Source: Ectothiorhodospiraceae bacterium (lineage in GTDB: Bacteria; Pseudomonadota; Gammaproteobacteria; Nitrococcales; AK92). Taken from it: a DNA stretch of 63,490 bases. Below the pieces are notes generated by a model. That model was not told the DNA's origin. It made no database searches and worked only from the letters and a program-made list of their open reading frames with translations. Within the stretch, counting starts at the first letter, position 1. Every line of letters starts with the position of its first letter. Positions 39,271 to 48,559 of the stretch are shown here, one piece after another. The position numbers and the translations under genes are program-made. The stretch lies in assembly GCA_029268285.1 (NCBI GenBank), contig JAJUGG010000001.1, positions 1 to 63,490 of the forward strand, written 5' to 3'.

Positions 39271-39505
39271 TGGCTTGAAGTTCAACCTGAATCCGCGAAG
39301 GCGCAAATGGTACTACAGGCCCGAAAGCCTGTCAGGGTGCATGCCGCGCCTCGCACCCGGGGCGCAGCAGCCGCCCTACCCTAATGTTTTTCCAAGCGCT
39401 GCCGCCATTACCAACGCCTGTCACAGCGTTTGTCCGGAAAGACGCCTCCCCGGGCAAGCGCGCATTATGTTGTAAAGGCGCCGCGCATGGCGTCGGGAGT
39501 GGTTG

Positions 39506-41488
39506 ATGTCCTTTCGTTTCGATCGATTTCTAAAGCTCGGGATCATGGGTAAAGTGCTATCCGTCCCGGTGCTAATCCTTCTGCTCATGGGCTTGGTCGG
39601 CGGCGTCGCCATGTATCAGCTCGTCAGCCTGGACCAGCAAATGGCTCATGTCGCCAAGGATCGGGCGCCCAGCACTGGCATCGCCTCGGACATCCTCATC
39701 GCGCTCAACGATCAACGCCTGAGCGTCAAGGAATTCGTCGCAGCTCCCGGCGACGAGCACCGTCAGGATTTCGATGCGCACAATAGTGCGCTCGAACAAC
39801 ACCTGCAGCGGGCGGTGGAAGCTTTCCAGAGCCCGGAGCGGGCGCAACTCGTGCGCATCCTGCTCGAGCAGCACTCTGCCTACGCACGCATCTTCCGAGA
39901 GGAAGTCGTTGCCGCTGCGCAGGAACGCCAGGACATCATCGCCACGCTCAATGCCCAAGGCGGGGAAATCACACGCCAGCTGCGCGCACTCCAGGAAGGA
40001 CAGCAATCCCTCGGCGAAACCCAGCCCATGCTCGTGACCGGCGACGCCATCGGCGACTTCCTGCTCGCCCATATGAGCGCCCAGCGCTACATCGGCCAAT
40101 ATCGTCCCGAACTGCTCGAACAAGCCGATGCGGCGCTCGCCCGCACGCTACGCTTGCTGGACGGCTTGAAGATCATGTCTTCGTCGATGTTCGAGGGCGA
40201 TATTGCCAAGACCGAAGCCCAGGTCGCCGACTATCGGCGCGGGCTCGGCCGCCTAGCCGAAGTGACGAGCCGGATGCGTAACCTCGTGGCCGAGCGTCTG
40301 GACGCCATCGGTCCCGAAATGGCGAACACCGCCCGGGAGCTGCAGAACAGCGCATTCGCCAGCCTTGCCGAGGCCGCTGACCGCAGCTCGGCCGAAGCTG
40401 CCCGCGCGCGCACTGTTATAGGCGCGCTGGTGTTGATCGCCGGCGTCGTCGGCTTAGCGCTGGCTTGGCTGATCACCCGCGGCATCGTCGGCCCTATCCG
40501 CACCGCAGATGCTGAAGTGAGCCGCATTCTGAAGGATATCGAAGCTTATCAGGGCGATCTCAGCGTGCGCCTGCCCGTTCGCAGCAATGATGAAGTCGGC
40601 CGCCTCACCGCCAGCATCAATCGCTTCCTGGAAACCCTGGACGAATTGGTCCGGTCGGTGCAACAAGAGACGACGCAACTCGCCACGGCCGCCGAGGAGC
40701 TTTCTGCGGTCACCGAGGAAACCAGCCAGAGCGCGAAGACCCAACAGGAAGAAACTGACCAGGTGGCAACGGCCATGAACGAGATGACCGCCACCACCCA
40801 AGAGATCTCCCGCAATGCGGGCGCGGCCGCCGAGGCCGCCAATGATGCCCGCGAAGCATCAAAAGCGGGCGGTGCTGTCGTCGCCCAAACCGTATCCGCC
40901 ATTCAAACACTGGCCGCCGAGGTTGACGTTGTCGTCGCACTCTCTCGCCGCCTTCGCGGCGATGGCGAGGCCGTCGGCACGGTGTTGGAGGTTATTACCG
41001 CCATCGCCGAACAGACCAACCTGCTTGCGCTCAACGCCGCCATCGAAGCGGCGCGCGCTGGCGAACAAGGGCGCGGTTTCGCGGTGGTCGCGGATGAAGT
41101 GCGCACCCTCGCTCTGCGCACGCAGAGCTCGATCAACGAGATCCAGGAGATCATCGAGCGCCTGCAGACCGGTACCGACGAAGTCGCCGCGCGCTTGGGC
41201 GAAAGCCAGACACGTACCATGCACACAGTGGACAAGGCCGAAGAAGCCGGCGCCGCCCTGGAATCCATCCAACAGAAGGTCGGCATCATCACCGACATGA
41301 ACAGCCAGATCGCATCGGCGGCCGAGCAGCAGACCGCGACCAGCGAAGAGATAAACCGCAGCATTCAGGCCACCCGCGAACTTGCTCAACGGGGTGCTGC
41401 AGGTGCGACTCAGGTCAGCGGCGCCAGCAGCGAACTGGCCGCCATGGGCGTGCGTCTGCAAGAGCTCATACGCCGCTTCGCCGCCTAA
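39506..41488 (+). CDS. Methyl-accepting chemotaxis protein
   Basis: 660 residues from ATG 39506 (GGGAGTGG upstream). TM helix about 14-38, a periplasmic helical sensor region to about 305, TM helix about 306-330, HAMP, then the cytoplasmic coiled coil. The signalling tip reads [20 protein letters not shown] then [13 protein letters not shown]. Sensor part is alpha-helical (long heptad-like stretches), resembling four-helix-bundle receptors; the ligand cannot be told. No che or flagellar genes are in the window, so this is an orphan receptor locus. Confidence 0.93.
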
Positions 41489-41555: not shown

Positions 41556-42836
41556 TCAGGCGGTGGAGTCGGCCAGAGCGCGCACCTCAGCGCGCGCCAA
41601 TGCGTTGCCACTGCTCCATGACTGCAAGTCCAAGCCACTGGGCTGCTGGAATACACGCAAACCGAATTCCGGCAGCACCGCCAGTAGATGATCGAACATG
41701 TCGGACTGAATGCTCTCGTATTCCGTCCATACGGTGGTGTTGGTGAAGCAGTAGATTTCCAGCGGCAAGCCTTCGGCGCTGGGGTTGAGCTGGCGCACCA
41801 TCAACGTCATGTCCTGACGAATCCGTGGATTGTTGCGCAGATAGCGCTCGACATAGGCGCGGAAGGTGCCGATATTGGTAACCCGACGGGTATTCACCGG
41901 CAGTTTCGCACGCTCGCCCAGGCGTTCGTTCCAGGACTTGATGTCGGCTTCCTTCTCGGCGAGATAGTCTTCCAGCAAGGCCACTTGGTGCAGGTACTCG
42001 CACTCGGCCGGCTCCAGAAAGCGAATGCTGTTCTGATCAAGGTAGATCGCCCGCTTGATCCGGCGCCCCCCGGACTCCTGCATGCCGCGCCAGTTCTTGA
42101 ACGACTCGGTGATCATGCGCTTGGTCGGGATAGTCGTGATCGTATTATCCCAGTTACGCACCTTGACCGTGTGCAGCGCGATGTCAATTACCGCGCCGTC
42201 CGCATTAAGTTGCGGCATTTCCACCCAGTCGCCCTGGCGAACGATATCGTTCGAGGAGATCTGAACGCTGGCGACGAGTGACAGTAACGTATCCTGGAAA
42301 ATCAACATCAAAACGGCCGCCATAGCGCCAAGACCCGACAGGAGGATTAGCGGCGAACGGTCAATCAGCGCAGCAATCATCAGGATAGCGGCTATCGCGT
42401 AGATTGCGATCTTGACCACTTGCAAGTAGCCCTTGATGGGTCGCGCCGCAGCATCCGGCCGGCGCTGATAGACCGCATTGACCATGTTCAGCACGGCGCT
42501 GAGCGCCAATGCCAGCGTGAGCACGATGTAGGCGCTGCACACGTTCTGAACGACTGTCACCAACGCCTCGGGCATGCGCGGCACAATGCCTACGCCGGCC
42601 GAAAGCACAATAGCCGGCACCGCATGCGCTAGCCTGCGCACTACGCCATGCTCCGGCATCTCGAATTTGCGCCCGCGGAAGGCGACCGCAACCACGCGCT
42701 CAAAGCCGCGTACCAAAACGCGCTTGGTAACGAAATTGGCAACCCACGCTACCAACAACAAAAAAGCACTCGCAGCGAGCGTGTACGCCCAGGGGTGTTC
42801 GTTCAGCCATGCCATGACGGCATTTATGGTTATCAT
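41556..42836 (-). CDS. ybdG: Mechanosensitive ion channel, YbdG/MscS family
   Basis: 426 residues from ATG 42836 (GAGGAATAAGC upstream); the longer frame from 42914 is unsupported. Several N-terminal membrane helices (about 17-40, 68-90, 98-125, 140-180), then the MscS pore helix region with LSLVASVQISSNDIVRQGDW and the beta domain with TVKVRNWDNTITTIPTKRM. SFKNWRGMQESGGRRIKRAI is particularly YbdG-like. Relieves osmotic pressure in the inner membrane. Confidence 0.88.
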   Translation of the reverse strand: MITINAVMAWLNEHPWAYTLAASAFLLLVAWVANFVTKRVLVRGFERVVAVAFRGRKFEMPEHGVVRRLAHAVPAIVLSAGVGIVPRMPEALVTVVQNVCSAYIVLTLALALSAVLNMVNAVYQRRPDAAARPIKGYLQVVKIAIYAIAAILMIAALIDRSPLILLSGLGAMAAVLMLIFQDTLLSLVASVQISSNDIVRQGDWVEMPQLNADGAVIDIALHTVKVRNWDNTITTIPTKRMITESFKNWRGMQESGGRRIKRAIYLDQNSIRFLEPAECEYLHQVALLEDYLAEKEADIKSWNERLGERAKLPVNTRRVTNIGTFRAYVERYLRNNPRIRQDMTLMVRQLNPSAEGLPLEIYCFTNTTVWTEYESIQSDMFDHLLAVLPEFGLRVFQQPSGLDLQSWSSGNALARAEVRALADSTA

Positions 42837-43004
42837 GCTTATTCCTCGTCTATCGCTTTGATGATCGCTCGCTTGATCACGCAAAGCCTTCTCGTGAAGC
42901 GCCCAGACTAGCAAAGCCGAACCTGCGAAGATCTCCGCGTCGTCACAACACCAGCCGGAACTCGGTCACAGCGGCTGAAACCTACGCAGCACTCGACATC
43001 GATC

Positions 43005-43018
43005 TTGCCCTAGATCAA
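43005..43018. promoter_or_regulatory. FNR/Anr-type binding box upstream of ttrBCA
   Basis: Read on the minus strand: TTGATCTAGGGCAA, compared with the FNR/Anr consensus TTGAT-N4-ATCAA. One half site is perfect, the other matches in three of five positions, and the CTAG spacer is common in Dnr/Anr boxes. It ends 57 bp before the ttrB ATG, a plausible activator position for oxygen-limited expression. Confidence 0.55.
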
Positions 43019-43075
43019 GGTGTTAAGCGACAGCCCCGTCAAGAATGGCTCATAAGCATTCGACGGAGATCATAA

Positions 43076-43852
43076 ATGGATAAGAGTCGCAGGGCTTTCC
43101 TAGGCCAAGCGGCCGCCCTAACCGCAGGTGCGGCGCTCATACCGCTGAGCGAGGCCTCGGCCGGCATCAACGATCAGCCCCCACGTCGCGGCGGCGATGC
43201 CAAACACCGCTACGGAATGGTCATCGATCTACGCCGCTGTATCGGCTGCCAGGCATGTACCGTCAGTTGCTCCCTGGAGAATCAGGCCCCGCTGGGGCAG
43301 TTCCGCACGGTCGTCCAGCAGTACGAAGTTGCCGATAGCGCTACCGGTCAGGTGGCGAATTTCATGCTGCCGCGCCTGTGCAATCACTGCGACCAACCGC
43401 CTTGCGTGCCCGTGTGCCCGGTACAGGCAACTTTTCAACGCAAAGACGGCATCGTGGTAGTCGATAATGAACGCTGCGTCGGCTGCGGCTACTGCGTACA
43501 AGCCTGTCCCTACGACGCTCGCTTCATTAACCACAAGACTCAGACCGCCGACAAATGCACCTTCTGCGTACATCGCCTGGAGGCAGGCTTGCTTCCGGCT
43601 TGTGTGGAAAGCTGCGTAGGGGGCGCCCGCATCATCGGCGACCTCAACGACCCGGACAGCCATATCCGCCAGGTTCTGCGTGAGAACTACGACGACGTCA
43701 AGGTGCTGAAGCCCGAGATGGGCACCCGCCCGCACGTGTTCTACATCGGCATGACCGACGCCTTCGTTGAACGTATTCATGGCGAGCCCGGCCTCTGGTT
43801 CGGCGCCCAGCACAGCCTGGGCCATAACGTCGGCACGGAGGATGGTCGATGA
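43076..43852 (+). CDS. ttrB: Tetrathionate reductase electron-transfer subunit TtrB
   Basis: 258 residues. A Tat-like leader (KSRRAFLGQAAALTAGAALI) is followed by a ferredoxin-type subunit with four [4Fe-4S] clusters: CIGCQACTVSC, CNHCDQPPCVPVC, CVGCGYCVQAC and CTFCVHRLEAGLLPAC. Blocks such as LIDLRRCIGCQ and LPACVESCVGGARIIGDL follow Salmonella TtrB almost residue for residue. Passes electrons from TtrC to TtrA. GGAG stands before the ATG; the stop overlaps ttrC (ATGA). The DMSO-reductase family has many such subunits, but similarity across all three genes favours Ttr. Confidence 0.9.
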   Translation: MDKSRRAFLGQAAALTAGAALIPLSEASAGINDQPPRRGGDAKHRYGMVIDLRRCIGCQACTVSCSLENQAPLGQFRTVVQQYEVADSATGQVANFMLPRLCNHCDQPPCVPVCPVQATFQRKDGIVVVDNERCVGCGYCVQACPYDARFINHKTQTADKCTFCVHRLEAGLLPACVESCVGGARIIGDLNDPDSHIRQVLRENYDDVKVLKPEMGTRPHVFYIGMTDAFVERIHGEPGLWFGAQHSLGHNVGTEDGR

Positions 43853-44949
43853 GTATCACCGAGATCACGGTACCCTTGTACGAAGTCGCCTGGTTGCCTT
43901 GGGCGGTGCAATACTTCTTCTTCATCGGCTTGAGCACAACAGCCTTACTACTCGCCAGCGTAGCGCACCTGGTAGGCCATCAGCGCTGGCAGCGACTGCA
44001 GCCGGCGGCGCTTCTGGTGGCAGTCTCCGCCGGCCTCGTGGCGCCGGTCGCCTTGCTCGCGGATCTACACCAACCCGGCCGTTTCTGGCATTTCTACGCC
44101 CATTTCACTCCCTGGTCCTGGATGTCCATCGGCTCCGTGCTGCTTCCGGCTTACTTCGCCACCCTGCTCACCTACGCCTTGATCTGGCAACGCGAACGGC
44201 TGCGTAGCCTGGGCGGCCCGCGCTGGCTGGCTTGGCTGGCACGGGGAGCGTGGTCCGGCGCCAAAGCGCTGCCTTGGCTAGCGGGTCTCGCTGCGGCACT
44301 TGCACTAGGCGTGCTCGTGTACACCGGCTCCGAAATCATGGTCGTACGGGCCCGACCACTTTGGCACACCTACTGGCTGCTGCCTAACCTCGCCTTGACC
44401 GCGCTCCTTGCCGCGGTTGCGGCAACGATCTTTGCGCAGCACTGGGTTACCGGCACCAGCACCGACGATGCCCGCTTCAGCTTGCGCCTGCTCAGCCTCG
44501 CTCTGCTCGCAACCGCCTTGGGCGCTGTCGGTTGGGGCCTTTCCGGCTGGATGCTGCAATCGGGCTCCTTTACCGAAGCCGTACGCTTATTCCGGCACTT
44601 TGGCTACTGGCGCTGGGTGTTCATCGGCTCCGCTCTGTTGGGCGTTCTCGGCCTCTGCGCTACCGTGCTCGTTTCACGCCGCCCTGCCTTGCTCAGCCGC
44701 AGCTGGATGCTGGCTCCCTTGGCACTGGCTTCCGCCTGGGCCTTCCGCTGGGTCGTGCTCATGCGCGTACAGACCGTGCCGAAGTACGGCGCGGGCCTGT
44801 ATCCGTATCAGTTACCGCTTGGCAGCGATGGCCTGATGGGAGTGATCGCCACCTTCGGCCTTTGGGTCGCGGTGTTCATCATGCTCTCCAGCGTTCTAAA
44901 CGCGTCCAAGACGGGCAATTTGACTATCCCGGAGATCGCTCATGCATAA
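43849..44949 (+). CDS. ttrC: Tetrathionate reductase membrane subunit TtrC (NrfD family)
   Basis: 366 residues, integral inner-membrane quinol oxidase subunit of the NrfD type with about nine hydrophobic helices. EVAWLPWAVQYFFFIGLS near the start, ADLHQPGRFWHFY and TPWSWMSIGSV, and the late VQTVPKYGAGLYPYQLPLGS match Salmonella TtrC. Takes electrons from quinol and hands them to TtrB. Overlaps ttrB by 4 bp and ttrA by 8 bp, so the three are translated together. Somewhat longer than the roughly 340-residue Salmonella protein. Confidence 0.88.
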   Translation: MSITEITVPLYEVAWLPWAVQYFFFIGLSTTALLLASVAHLVGHQRWQRLQPAALLVAVSAGLVAPVALLADLHQPGRFWHFYAHFTPWSWMSIGSVLLPAYFATLLTYALIWQRERLRSLGGPRWLAWLARGAWSGAKALPWLAGLAAALALGVLVYTGSEIMVVRARPLWHTYWLLPNLALTALLAAVAATIFAQHWVTGTSTDDARFSLRLLSLALLATALGAVGWGLSGWMLQSGSFTEAVRLFRHFGYWRWVFIGSALLGVLGLCATVLVSRRPALLSRSWMLAPLALASAWAFRWVVLMRVQTVPKYGAGLYPYQLPLGSDGLMGVIATFGLWVAVFIMLSSVLNASKTGNLTIPEIAHA

Positions 44950-47900
44950 GAACCGTCGAAACCTCCTCAAGGGCGGTCTAGCCCTCGGCGGCCTAGGCGC
45001 CTTCGCCGCCGGCTACACTGACCCGCTACGGAAGACCCTGAAAGGGCTCACGAAAGGCACTGCCGGTGAACCGACGCTGGATCGCATTGCCGGCAACGCG
45101 CTCCCGCCTGAATTTCGAATCGATCCGGAAACGGGCGAACTGCACTGCACGCCCGGCCAAGTCGTCAGCTTGACCCAGTGCCAGGGCTGTTGGACCCAAT
45201 GCGGAATTCGCGCTCGAGTCGACACGCAGCAGAACACCATCCTGCGCATCGCCGGCAATCCTTATCACCCGCTCTCGCACGAGAACCCTACTCCCTACTC
45301 GCTTTCAGTGCGGGAAGCCTACAGGCGCCTCGGTGGCGACAGCGCTATTCTGGACCGCTCCACGGCCTGCGCACGCGGGGCCGCCATGCTCGAGCAACTC
45401 ACCAGCCCGCATCGCGTGATCAAGCCGTTGAAGCGGGTTGGTCCACGCGGCAGCGGACGCTGGGAAACCATCAGTTTCGAGCAATTGATCCAGGAAGTCG
45501 TAGAGGGCGGCGACCTTTTCGGTGAGGGCCATGTAGACGGCCTGCGGGCGCTGCGCGACCTAGATACACCGATTGATCCGGACAACCCGGAGTACGGCCC
45601 GAAGGCAAACCAGCTGATGGTCACCGGAACCGGTGATGACGGTCGACGACCGCTGCTGACTCGCTTCACCTTCAATGCTTTCGGCAGCCGCAACTTCGGC
45701 CATCACGGCTCGTATTGCACCGGCGGCTATCGTGCCGGCTCCGGCGCCCTGCTCAACGACCTCGTCAAGCTCTCCCACACCAAGCCTGATTGGGAGCATC
45801 TACGCTTTGCGCTGTTCTTCGGCACCTCGCCGGCCCAGTCCGGCAACCCCTATAAATTGCAGGGGCGCCAACTCGCCACCGCCCGAACCGAACGTGAGTT
45901 CGAGTATGTAGTCGTGGCCCCGGCACTGCCGAATACCGCCAGTCTAGCCGCCGGCAACAAGAGCGTATGGTTCCCGGTGCGGCCGGCGTCGGATTCTGCG
46001 CTGGCGATGGCGATGATCCGCTGGATCATCGATCATGGCCGTTACGACGCGCAGTACCTCGCGCAGCCCGGTCCTGCTGCCATGAGCAAGGCCGGCGAGC
46101 CGAGTTGGACCAATGCGACCCATCTGGTGGTCAGCGAAACCGGGCATCCTGATGAAGGACGCTTCCTCCGCGGTAAGGATCTAGGCTGGAGCGACGCGGA
46201 AGCCTTTGTTGTGTGCGATGCCGCCAGCGGTGCCTGGGCGGCACATACGCAGGAAGCCCCGGCGATGCTGTTCGTCGACGCTACGGTCGAGGTCGACGGC
46301 CGCCCGGTACGGGTTAAATCCAGCCTGCAACGCCTCAAGGAAGAAGCAAGCAAGAAAACGCTCGATGAATATGCCGCCCTTTGCGGCGCGCCGCCCGCCG
46401 CCATTGCCGCGCTAGCGGAAAAGTTCACCAGCTTTGGCAAACAGGCCGCCGTAGTGAGCCAAGGGGGCGTCATGAACGGCAACGCCTTCTACACCGCCTA
46501 CGCGGTGACCATGCTCAACGCGCTCATCGGCAACCTCAACGCCAAAGGCGGCACCTTCGTCGGCGGCGGCGCCTTCCCGTCCACGACCAAAGGGGCGCGC
46601 TACGACCTGCAGTCCTTCCCTGGCATGGTTAAGCCCAAAGGCGTATTCCTTTCGCGCAGCCGCTTCCCTTACGAGCGTACTAGCGAGTACAAGCGCAAGC
46701 TTGCCGCAGGCGAGAATCCTTATCCCGCCCAGGCCCCCTGGTATCCGCTCGCGCCACCGGTGATGTCGGAATACCTGGCAGCCGCCCTGGAGGGCTACCC
46801 CTACTCCGCCAAGGTCTGGATCAACCATCTTGCCAACCCGCTGTATGGCCAGGCCGGACTGCGCGCGGCCATCGAGGAAAAACTCAAGGATCCCAAGCGC
46901 ATCGGCTTGTTCATTGCGGTCGACGCATTCATCAGCGAAACCGCAGCGTTCGCCGACTATATCGTCCCGGACACGCTCACCTACGAAAGCTGGGGGTTCA
47001 GCGCCCCCTGGGGTGGTGTCCCGCAAAAGGCCAGCACGGCACGTTGGCCGGTGGTCGAGCCGCGTACCGCACGCACCGCTGACGGTCAGCCGGTGTGCCT
47101 GGAAAGCTTCTTGATTGCTGTCGCTAAAAGCCTGAACCTGCCGGGTTTCGGCGCCGCAGCCGTGCCTGATCAAGAAGGTAATCTACACCCCCTCAATAGC
47201 CTGGAGGATTACTATCTCAGAGGAGCGGCCAATCTCGCTTTTGCCGGCAGCGCGGTGCCGGAGGCAAGCGATGATGATCTTTCCATTACCGGGCTCGAAC
47301 GCCTGCGTCCGGCACTCGAGCACACGCTGAAGCAGGAAGAATGGCGTCGGGTGGCGTACGTATACGCACGCGGCGGGCGCTTTGCGCCCAAGCCGGATAA
47401 AGCGGCAAAGGCCCCGCCGCGCATCTGGGATCGTCCGCTTTGCATCTGGAACGAGCAGGTCGGCACCACGCGCCACTCCATCACGGGAGAGCGCCTGAGC
47501 GGTTGCCCCACCTGGTACCCCATCCGAATGGCCGATGGCTCGGCACTCGAAGCGCTATATACGCCGGACCAATGGCCGTTTCGCCTCACTGCGTACAAAT
47601 CCAACCTGCAAAGCGCGGTATCCATCGGAGCTTCGCGGCTACGTCAGATCCACCCGAACAACCCGGTCGGCATCAGCCGTCAAGATGCCGAGCGCTTAGG
47701 GATCAGTACCGGCGATTTAGTACGTCTGATCACGCCAACCGGCAGCATGGTGGCCACCGCTCAGGTCAGACAGGGGCTGATAACGGGTGCCATCGCGGTT
47801 GAGTATGGCTTCGGCCATCGGGAAATGGGCGCGCGCTCGCACATCATCGACGGCCAGGCCACACCGGCCGACGCTGCGCTCGGCGCGGGGGTGAATCTCA

Positions 47901-48016
47901 ATGATATCGGCATCGTCGACCCTACCCACGGCGCCGGCAATGCTTGGACCGACTGGGTCAGCGCAGCAGCCGTACGGCAAGGGCTACCCGCGAGAATCGA
48001 GCGCTTGAAGAGCTGA
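44942..48016 (+). CDS. ttrA: Tetrathionate reductase catalytic molybdopterin subunit TtrA
   Basis: 1024 residues, close to the Salmonella enzyme (about 1,020). Reduces tetrathionate to two thiosulfates. Twin-arginine leader HKNRRNLLKGGLALGGLGA. [4Fe-4S] ligands C80, C83, C87 and C143 (TQCQGCWTQCG; STACARGA). C259 in GHHGSYCTGGYRAGSG is the likely molybdenum ligand. EQLIQEVVEGGDLFGEGHVDG, FFGTSPAQSGNP and SWGFSAPWGGV are Ttr-like blocks. No stop or frameshift. The related Arr/Arx/Srr enzymes are alternatives, but the ttrBCA order and residue match favour tetrathionate. Confidence 0.9.
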   Translation: MHKNRRNLLKGGLALGGLGAFAAGYTDPLRKTLKGLTKGTAGEPTLDRIAGNALPPEFRIDPETGELHCTPGQVVSLTQCQGCWTQCGIRARVDTQQNTILRIAGNPYHPLSHENPTPYSLSVREAYRRLGGDSAILDRSTACARGAAMLEQLTSPHRVIKPLKRVGPRGSGRWETISFEQLIQEVVEGGDLFGEGHVDGLRALRDLDTPIDPDNPEYGPKANQLMVTGTGDDGRRPLLTRFTFNAFGSRNFGHHGSYCTGGYRAGSGALLNDLVKLSHTKPDWEHLRFALFFGTSPAQSGNPYKLQGRQLATARTEREFEYVVVAPALPNTASLAAGNKSVWFPVRPASDSALAMAMIRWIIDHGRYDAQYLAQPGPAAMSKAGEPSWTNATHLVVSETGHPDEGRFLRGKDLGWSDAEAFVVCDAASGAWAAHTQEAPAMLFVDATVEVDGRPVRVKSSLQRLKEEASKKTLDEYAALCGAPPAAIAALAEKFTSFGKQAAVVSQGGVMNGNAFYTAYAVTMLNALIGNLNAKGGTFVGGGAFPSTTKGARYDLQSFPGMVKPKGVFLSRSRFPYERTSEYKRKLAAGENPYPAQAPWYPLAPPVMSEYLAAALEGYPYSAKVWINHLANPLYGQAGLRAAIEEKLKDPKRIGLFIAVDAFISETAAFADYIVPDTLTYESWGFSAPWGGVPQKASTARWPVVEPRTARTADGQPVCLESFLIAVAKSLNLPGFGAAAVPDQEGNLHPLNSLEDYYLRGAANLAFAGSAVPEASDDDLSITGLERLRPALEHTLKQEEWRRVAYVYARGGRFAPKPDKAAKAPPRIWDRPLCIWNEQVGTTRHSITGERLSGCPTWYPIRMADGSALEALYTPDQWPFRLTAYKSNLQSAVSIGASRLRQIHPNNPVGISRQDAERLGISTGDLVRLITPTGSMVATAQVRQGLITGAIAVEYGFGHREMGARSHIIDGQATPADAALGAGVNLNDIGIVDPTHGAGNAWTDWVSAAAVRQGLPARIERLKS

Positions 48017-48241: not shown

Positions 48242-48559
48242 ATGAAACAGATTGTTGTGGCCGCCTTGGCCGCTTTCCTCGCCTTCCCCGCTTTCGTGAG
48301 CGCGCAGATGCAGAGCGAAGAAGCCGTGAACGGCATGGGAACATCGGACAGCGAGACGAGCATGGGCACCCTGGACTTCGAGGCTGCCGATACCGATAGC
48401 AGCGGCTCGGTTTCCCAGGACGAAGCGGATCTCGCCGGCATCAGCACGGACGACTTCGACACCGCCGACGAAGACGGCGACGGCGAGTTGACCGCGGACG
48501 AGTACGAGACCGCGTCCGGCGGCAGCTCGAGCATGGGCGGCTCCGGCTCCATGGAGTAA
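48242..48559 (+). CDS. Small secreted EF-hand calcium-binding protein
   Basis: 105 residues. Signal peptide 1-21 (VVAALAAFLAFPAFVSAQ). Mature part is very acidic, with two EF-hand loops: DTDSSGSVSQDE (about 51-62) and DEDGDGELTADE (about 76-87), both with correct calcium ligands at 1, 3, 5 and 12. Ends in a Gly/Ser/Met-rich tail. GGAGG precedes the ATG at good spacing. Has its own terminator. No partner is obvious; it follows ttrBCA by 225 bp, with no proof of a link. Confidence 0.85.
   Translation: MKQIVVAALAAFLAFPAFVSAQMQSEEAVNGMGTSDSETSMGTLDFEAADTDSSGSVSQDEADLAGISTDDFDTADEDGDGELTADEYETASGGSSSMGGSGSME

Follow-up and report, generated by a model that had tools for sequence, protein, structure and literature searches.

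A tetrathionate reductase operon without TtrSR in an Ectothiorhodospiraceae bacterium and its probable control by FNR alone

The 63,490-nucleotide stretch analysed here (the window), from an Ectothiorhodospiraceae bacterium, contains the operon ttrBCA, which is predicted to encode a tetrathionate reductase. Textbook tetrathionate respiration is under two-signal control: the TtrSR two-component system, which also serves as a biosensor of gut inflammation, senses tetrathionate, and FNR senses anoxia. The sequence contains the complete operon, an FNR-type box upstream of it at a spacing different from that of TtrSR-controlled promoters, and, elsewhere in the genome, genes for FNR and TsdA, while neither TtrS nor TtrR operators were found in the assembly. 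A TtrSR-less operon with an FNR site 30 bases nearer the gene suggests that a lack of oxygen is enough to switch the genes on. Tetrathionate respiration is thus probably uncoupled from tetrathionate sensing in this bacterium and controlled by oxygen alone, through predicted FNR binding and FNR-only activation.

The FNR-type box (Table 1) is the only match in the 63-kb window to TTGYYYYRGATCAA, for which 0.03 matches are expected. This restricted pattern is decisive; the FNR consensus TTGATN4ATCAA with two mismatches, the level at which the window box matches it, yields 25 matches in the window and is uninformative alone. The sister genus (G003) has TTGTCCCAGATCAA at the homologous place. The TtrR box, GTGG-N4-CCAC, has been established experimentally in Vibrio parahaemolyticus (PMC11293645). 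No TtrR operator was found in the 300 bp upstream of ttrB, where the best match has two mismatches and the wrong spacing, and the operator is absent from its expected place 28 bp from the FNR-type box. The hexamer AAGAAT at +29 from the box centre has the second-best -10 score among 50 offsets, and pairwise alignment matches it with AACAAT of G003 (flank similarity p=0.0095). Box centre and hexamer are 29.5 bp apart in the window versus 59.5 bp in G003, a net shortening of 30 bp, or three helical turns. Judged from the position of AAGAAT, the box would be centred at -41.5, with a putative start site at about 43053. The standard class II position for FNR is -41.5, so that the box and the -10-like hexamer stand at the right distance for class II activation, although the box deviates from consensus. 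The sister-genus locus (L045) otherwise resembles that of the window, sharing the FNR-type box, a similar -10 flank and a TtrA with 75% identity; unlike the window, it retains a divergent ttrSR, as in Salmonella, and a perfect operator core.

Table 1 Features of the ttr region of the window.
Feature	Coordinates	Strand	Description
FNR-type box TTGCCCTAGATCAA	43005..43018	+	Perfect match to the box TTGYYYYRGATCAA of TtrSR-controlled ttrB promoters
Operator-less stretch	43019..43040	+	Where GTGG-N4-CCAC would begin; expected centre about 43039-43040
Putative -10 element AAGAAT	43041..43046	+	Begins 29.5 bp beyond the FNR-type box centre
ttrB	43076..43852	+	Periplasmic iron-sulfur subunit; Tat signal SRRAFL; 16 cluster cysteines; NF011569 431.6 bits
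ttrC	43849..44949	+	NrfD-family membrane quinol-oxidising subunit; NF011568 249.8 bits, PF03916 98.3 bits
ttrA	44942..48016	+	Molybdopterin catalytic subunit; Tat signal NRRNLLK; NF011567 1489 bits over full length
MscS-family channel gene	41556..42914 (open reading frame; likely start near 42836)	-	PF00924 56.8 bits; divergent, in the place of ttrSR

The first-pass annotation had reported that no TtrSR lies near the operon, that a mechanosensitive channel gene is the upstream neighbour, and that control must differ. The neighbourhood is as described: no TtrSR and no other regulator gene adjoins the operon. The absence of TtrS extends from the window to the whole assembly (G000; 91.9% complete, 320 contigs), where Citrobacter and G003 TtrS queries matched histidine-kinase domains only and never the sensor domain; TtrR was not separately searched genome-wide. 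No decayed ttrS was seen in searches that read through stops. The sole PF12974 protein of the assembly, encoded on contig C14, was rejected as a TtrS sensor; it is a stand-alone ABC-type binding protein of 331 residues adjoining a permease gene. The extended TtrR operator, with up to two mismatches, occurs nowhere in the assembly. Neither ttrSR elsewhere nor a matching site at ttrB was therefore found, with about 8% of the genome possibly missing, and the proposal of different control is supported because the TtrR operator is gone as well. The missing portion could encode a TtrSR that still controls ttrBCA in trans via a diverged site; G044 and Azospirillum argentinense provide examples of TtrS encoded apart from ttrBCA (see below), and the window has kept a box of the kind found in TtrSR-controlled promoters. 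Such an arrangement is unlikely, however, given that the operator is absent at ttrB and throughout the assembly, that near relatives which keep TtrS also keep the operator (in its extended form at ttrB and/or near tsdBA), and that the eight TtrS-bearing loci without operator are of alphaproteobacterial, betaproteobacterial or otherwise divergent types.

The generality of the promoter difference was assessed by scoring the TtrR box and the FNR-type box in the 300 bp upstream of ttrB in 85 loci, 57 with TtrS and 28 without nearby or known TtrS; 80 of at least 506 relatives were taken. In Salmonella, ttrB transcription needs FNR, according to work cited in PMC5408782. The TtrR operator occurs in 49 of the 57 loci with TtrS versus none of the 28 without (Fisher 1e-15, a value to be read with the relatedness of the rows in mind). 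In 47/56 loci with adjacent TtrS, the centres of an off-consensus FNR-type box and of the operator are separated by exactly 28 bp, an arrangement seen in gammaproteobacterial TtrSR loci. Conversely, the consensus form TTGA...ATCAA is present in 20/28 loci without TtrS and in 0/57 with it. Relative to the FNR centre, the averaged -10 score has its peak at +59 when TtrS is present and at +29 when it is not (dereplicated z of 3.08 and 2.96, respectively). Taking the -10 hexamer to start at -12, these averaged peaks would place FNR at -71.5 and TtrR at -43.5 in the presence of TtrS, and FNR at -41.5 in its absence. The positions -71.5 and -41.5 are the classical class I and class II FNR positions. 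An additional, conserved -10-like signal at +31 in the TtrSR loci was discarded as a promoter element; the signal comes from the operator's right arm (CCACAATA).

The ttrRS-ttrBCA of Salmonella and other enterobacteria, represented here by Citrobacter plasmid pM92-1 (L053), shares with the window the gene order, the cofactor residues and an FNR-type box upstream, whereas the window lacks the divergent ttrSR and the TtrR operator and has its box 30 bp nearer the -10 element. The TtrRS-TtrBCA-TsdBA system of V. parahaemolyticus (PMC11293645) likewise combines a TtrBCA enzyme and TsdBA in one genome, but the window's genome has neither TtrRS nor the TtrR box, and its tsdBA genes are located elsewhere. 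Also among the closest counterparts are the TtrSR-less loci of Achromobacter, Comamonas, Delftia, Melaminivora, a Paracoccus plasmid and the Spiribacter-group genome G008, which are also operator-less and, in the group profile, have a -10-like signal at +29. Most of these, however, have the consensus palindrome TTGATN4ATCAA, in contrast to the ancestral off-consensus box of the window. As a sequence rule, the presence or absence of the operator and the location of the -10 signal at +59 or +29 from the FNR box would predict which bacteria sense tetrathionate and which respond to oxygen only, and the window would exemplify a promoter rewired through a shift of whole helical turns.

Several observations weigh against FNR-only control or against the generality of the rule. 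The window box has two mismatches to the FNR consensus, unlike most other TtrSR-less loci, and because of this FNR may act weakly on it. AAGAAT matches the -10 consensus at only 4/6 positions and a slightly better hexamer lies beside the ATG. The incompleteness and fragmentation of the assembly point in the same direction. Among phylogenetically independent pairs (n=8), four are informative for the operator and split 4:0 (p=0.125); the operator rule is strong by count but partly reflects shared ancestry, and the pair test is consistent with it but underpowered. The Pseudomonas and Lampropedia loci without TtrSR also have no clear FNR box, and in two rows counted as TtrS-less (L112, L146), which may be misclassified, a TtrR relative is adjacent. 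A class-wide out-of-sample set gave one usable TtrSR-less promoter only, which matches that of Comamonas. In favour of the rule, two genomes illustrate the joint behaviour of sensor and operator: G044, in which TtrS is about 8 kb away rather than adjacent, keeps the operator at ttrB, and G008, 100% complete, has lost both TtrS and the operator at ttrB. Tentatively, and somewhat short of an even chance, TtrSR may have been lost repeatedly with one stereotyped change, in which the operator disappears and the FNR site moves from -71.5 to -41.5, converting a two-signal into an oxygen-only switch; the window would then be an intermediate whose box has moved but not yet drifted to consensus. No description of TtrSR-less ttr promoters was found in the openly readable literature (subscription journals were outside the scope). 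Judged against that literature, the coordinated promoter change is new; the missing sensor itself is common.

In the ancestor of the window's lineage, ttrBCA would have been activated from two sites together, the TtrR operator at -43.5 and an off-consensus FNR box at about -71.5. Loss of ttrSR and deletion of the operator would have been accompanied by the net removal of 30 bp between the FNR box and the -10 element, bringing FNR to -41.5. Under oxygen limitation, FNR encoded elsewhere in the genome would be activated and turn on ttrBCA from this position without a tetrathionate signal. The single FNR-type protein of the genome scores 291.8 bits against NF008365 (cut-off 228) and has the CxxCx5C motif with a further cysteine and the E-x2-SR recognition residues. 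TtrC would take electrons from the quinol pool and pass them through TtrB to TtrA, which would reduce tetrathionate to thiosulfate. The genome contains two tsdBA-like cytochrome pairs unlinked to ttrBCA (L192 749-2386 and L193 313-2268, on contigs C162 and C135), which would allow a thiosulfate-tetrathionate cycle. In such a cycle, TsdBA could oxidise thiosulfate and build up a store of tetrathionate in the presence of oxygen, to be respired by TtrBCA once oxygen is gone.

The junction between the MscS-family gene and ttrB allows for a different outcome. MscS homologues lie away from ttr in both G002, a member of the same family, and G003, and for this reason the junction, found in neither genome, is taken as a rearrangement; the channel gene itself is not part of the ttr system. 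The rearranged operon might be constitutive or silent, or might respond to an unrecognised regulator that is neither FNR nor TtrSR, and the Pseudomonas ttrBCA, which lacks FNR and TtrR boxes and is followed by an arsR gene, offers some precedent. This is nevertheless rather unlikely for the window, where the conserved FNR-type box occurs only once and at a class II spacing, and where no regulator gene adjoins the operon. Control by FNR alone remains the preferred explanation.

The enzyme itself is ordinary for a tetrathionate reductase. As the first-pass annotation stated, the operon is complete, with all three reading frames open and overlaps of 4 bp (ttrB/ttrC) and 8 bp (ttrC/ttrA). Its proposed span, 43005-48016, ends correctly with ttrA, but 43005 is base 1 of the FNR-type box rather than the start of a gene. 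The cofactor residues are retained, also as claimed. The TtrB cysteines form four groups of four (55/58/61/65, 102/105/110/114, 134/137/140/144 and 161/164/176/180), and the 4Fe-4S ligands C80, C83, C87 and C143 and the Mo ligand C259 of TtrA are invariant in an alignment of ten TtrA sequences. The ttrB-ttrC-ttrA layout with 4Fe-4S, NrfD and molybdopterin subunits and twin-arginine (Tat) signals is that of TtrABC, and all the expected residues are present. TtrB exceeds the NF011569 equivalog cut-off of 416 bits, and TtrC, which like TtrA matches its family over the full length, falls below the curated cut-off of 314 bits, as does TtrA for its cut-off of 1750 bits, a threshold passed by the TtrA of 0/115 relatives searched.

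Sequence identity of the window TtrA reaches 59% with a Pseudomonas TtrA and 54.5% with enterobacterial TtrA, as against 34.5% with the homologue from an arsenic island of Citrobacter (L065). That island, of the alternative arsenate reductase/SrdA branch, resembles the window in operon layout and superfamily but has flanking ars genes and falls in a separate clade. A tree of 95 TtrA sequences, with an outgroup of two sequences only and bona fide SrdA and ArrA not included, groups the window TtrA with Arhodomonas, Spiribacter-group genomes and G003 (98% support in the Shimodaira-Hasegawa-like approximate likelihood ratio test, SH-aLRT), within an 85-row clade (99% SH-aLRT) that also contains the Vibrio, Shewanella and enterobacterial enzymes. 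Within that clade the Vibrio/Shewanella and the enterobacterial enzymes bracket the window TtrA, and the two outgroup sequences (arsenic-island/haloarchaeal) are far removed. Relatedness within the genome set likewise puts the organism in the order of Arhodomonas and Spiribacter. An identity as an arsenate or selenate enzyme, the possibility that a TtrA phylogeny had been suggested to settle, was rejected on these identity values and this tree with its two outgroup sequences. No structure of a close TtrA relative has been solved; the best matches are ArrA and thiosulfate reductase (E about 1e-12). The other molybdopterin enzymes of the assembly resemble formate dehydrogenases, an assimilatory-type nitrate reductase (both kinds by best scores, some under cut-off) and NuoG, which leaves TtrA as the only candidate respiratory oxyanion reductase of the superfamily found. 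The operon thus likely encodes a genuine periplasmic tetrathionate reductase, its activity being predicted from these comparisons. The TtrA family is catalytically versatile (PMC10100899), and this versatility, together with the sub-threshold NCBIfam scores of TtrA and TtrC, leaves a very small chance that the main substrate is another oxyanion, such as arsenate or selenate, or thiosulfate instead; the 55-60% identity to Ttr enzymes, the position in the tree and the two TsdA thiosulfate dehydrogenase homologues of the genome all speak for tetrathionate.

The occurrence of ttrBCA without ttrSR in an aerobic-looking bacterium, regarded as unusual at first, is not exceptional, with 28 of the 85 scored loci lacking a nearby or known TtrS and common aerobic genera among them. 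These comprise Achromobacter, Comamonas, Delftia, Melaminivora, Oryzisolibacter, Lampropedia, Pseudomonas, the Paracoccus plasmid, the complete Spiribacter-group genome G008 and others; genome-wide absence of TtrS was confirmed for two Achromobacter, one Comamonas, one Delftia, one Pseudomonas and G008. Mapped on the tree, the TtrS label switches at least 9-10 times; this label set is the one before L042/L081 and L064 were corrected as loci with TtrS encoded at a distance. In Pseudomonas sp. BYT-5 plasmid pBYT5-2 (L052 13179-15024), a conjugative plasmid, and P. putida 31753 (L083), ttrBCA lacks ttrSR as well as both the FNR box and the TtrR operator. Downstream of it lie arsR, a Sulf_transp-like gene and genes for DUF6691, a YgaP-like membrane protein and OsmC, and an ArsR repressor responsive to sulfur may provide a third mode of control there.

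Other arrangements of TtrSR were also seen. TtrS away from ttrBCA is encoded at G044:C6:105434-107095 and on Azospirillum argentinense plasmid AbAZ39_p2 (897458-899278); the latter is another TtrSR type, and no GTGG-N4-CCAC operator was seen at its ttrB. Seven loci (L044, L063, L122, L133, L147, L150 and L156), from alpha- and betaproteobacteria and G012, have a co-directional ttrS-ttrR upstream of ttrB and no such operator; their TtrR probably reads another site. G002 is 100% complete and has no ttrBCA, but carries an orphan TtrSR divergent from tsdBA (L172 5492-9679) with a TtrR operator upstream of tsdB, TtrSR being kept there for the thiosulfate/tetrathionate cytochromes alone. In the window, a methyl-accepting chemotaxis protein gene (39503-41488) lies just upstream of the MscS gene and shows no sign of belonging with ttr. 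A small secreted EF-hand protein with a weak lanmodulin match (21.9 bits, cut-off 135) is encoded at 48242-48559, between ttrA and an ETF-quinone oxidoreductase-like gene.

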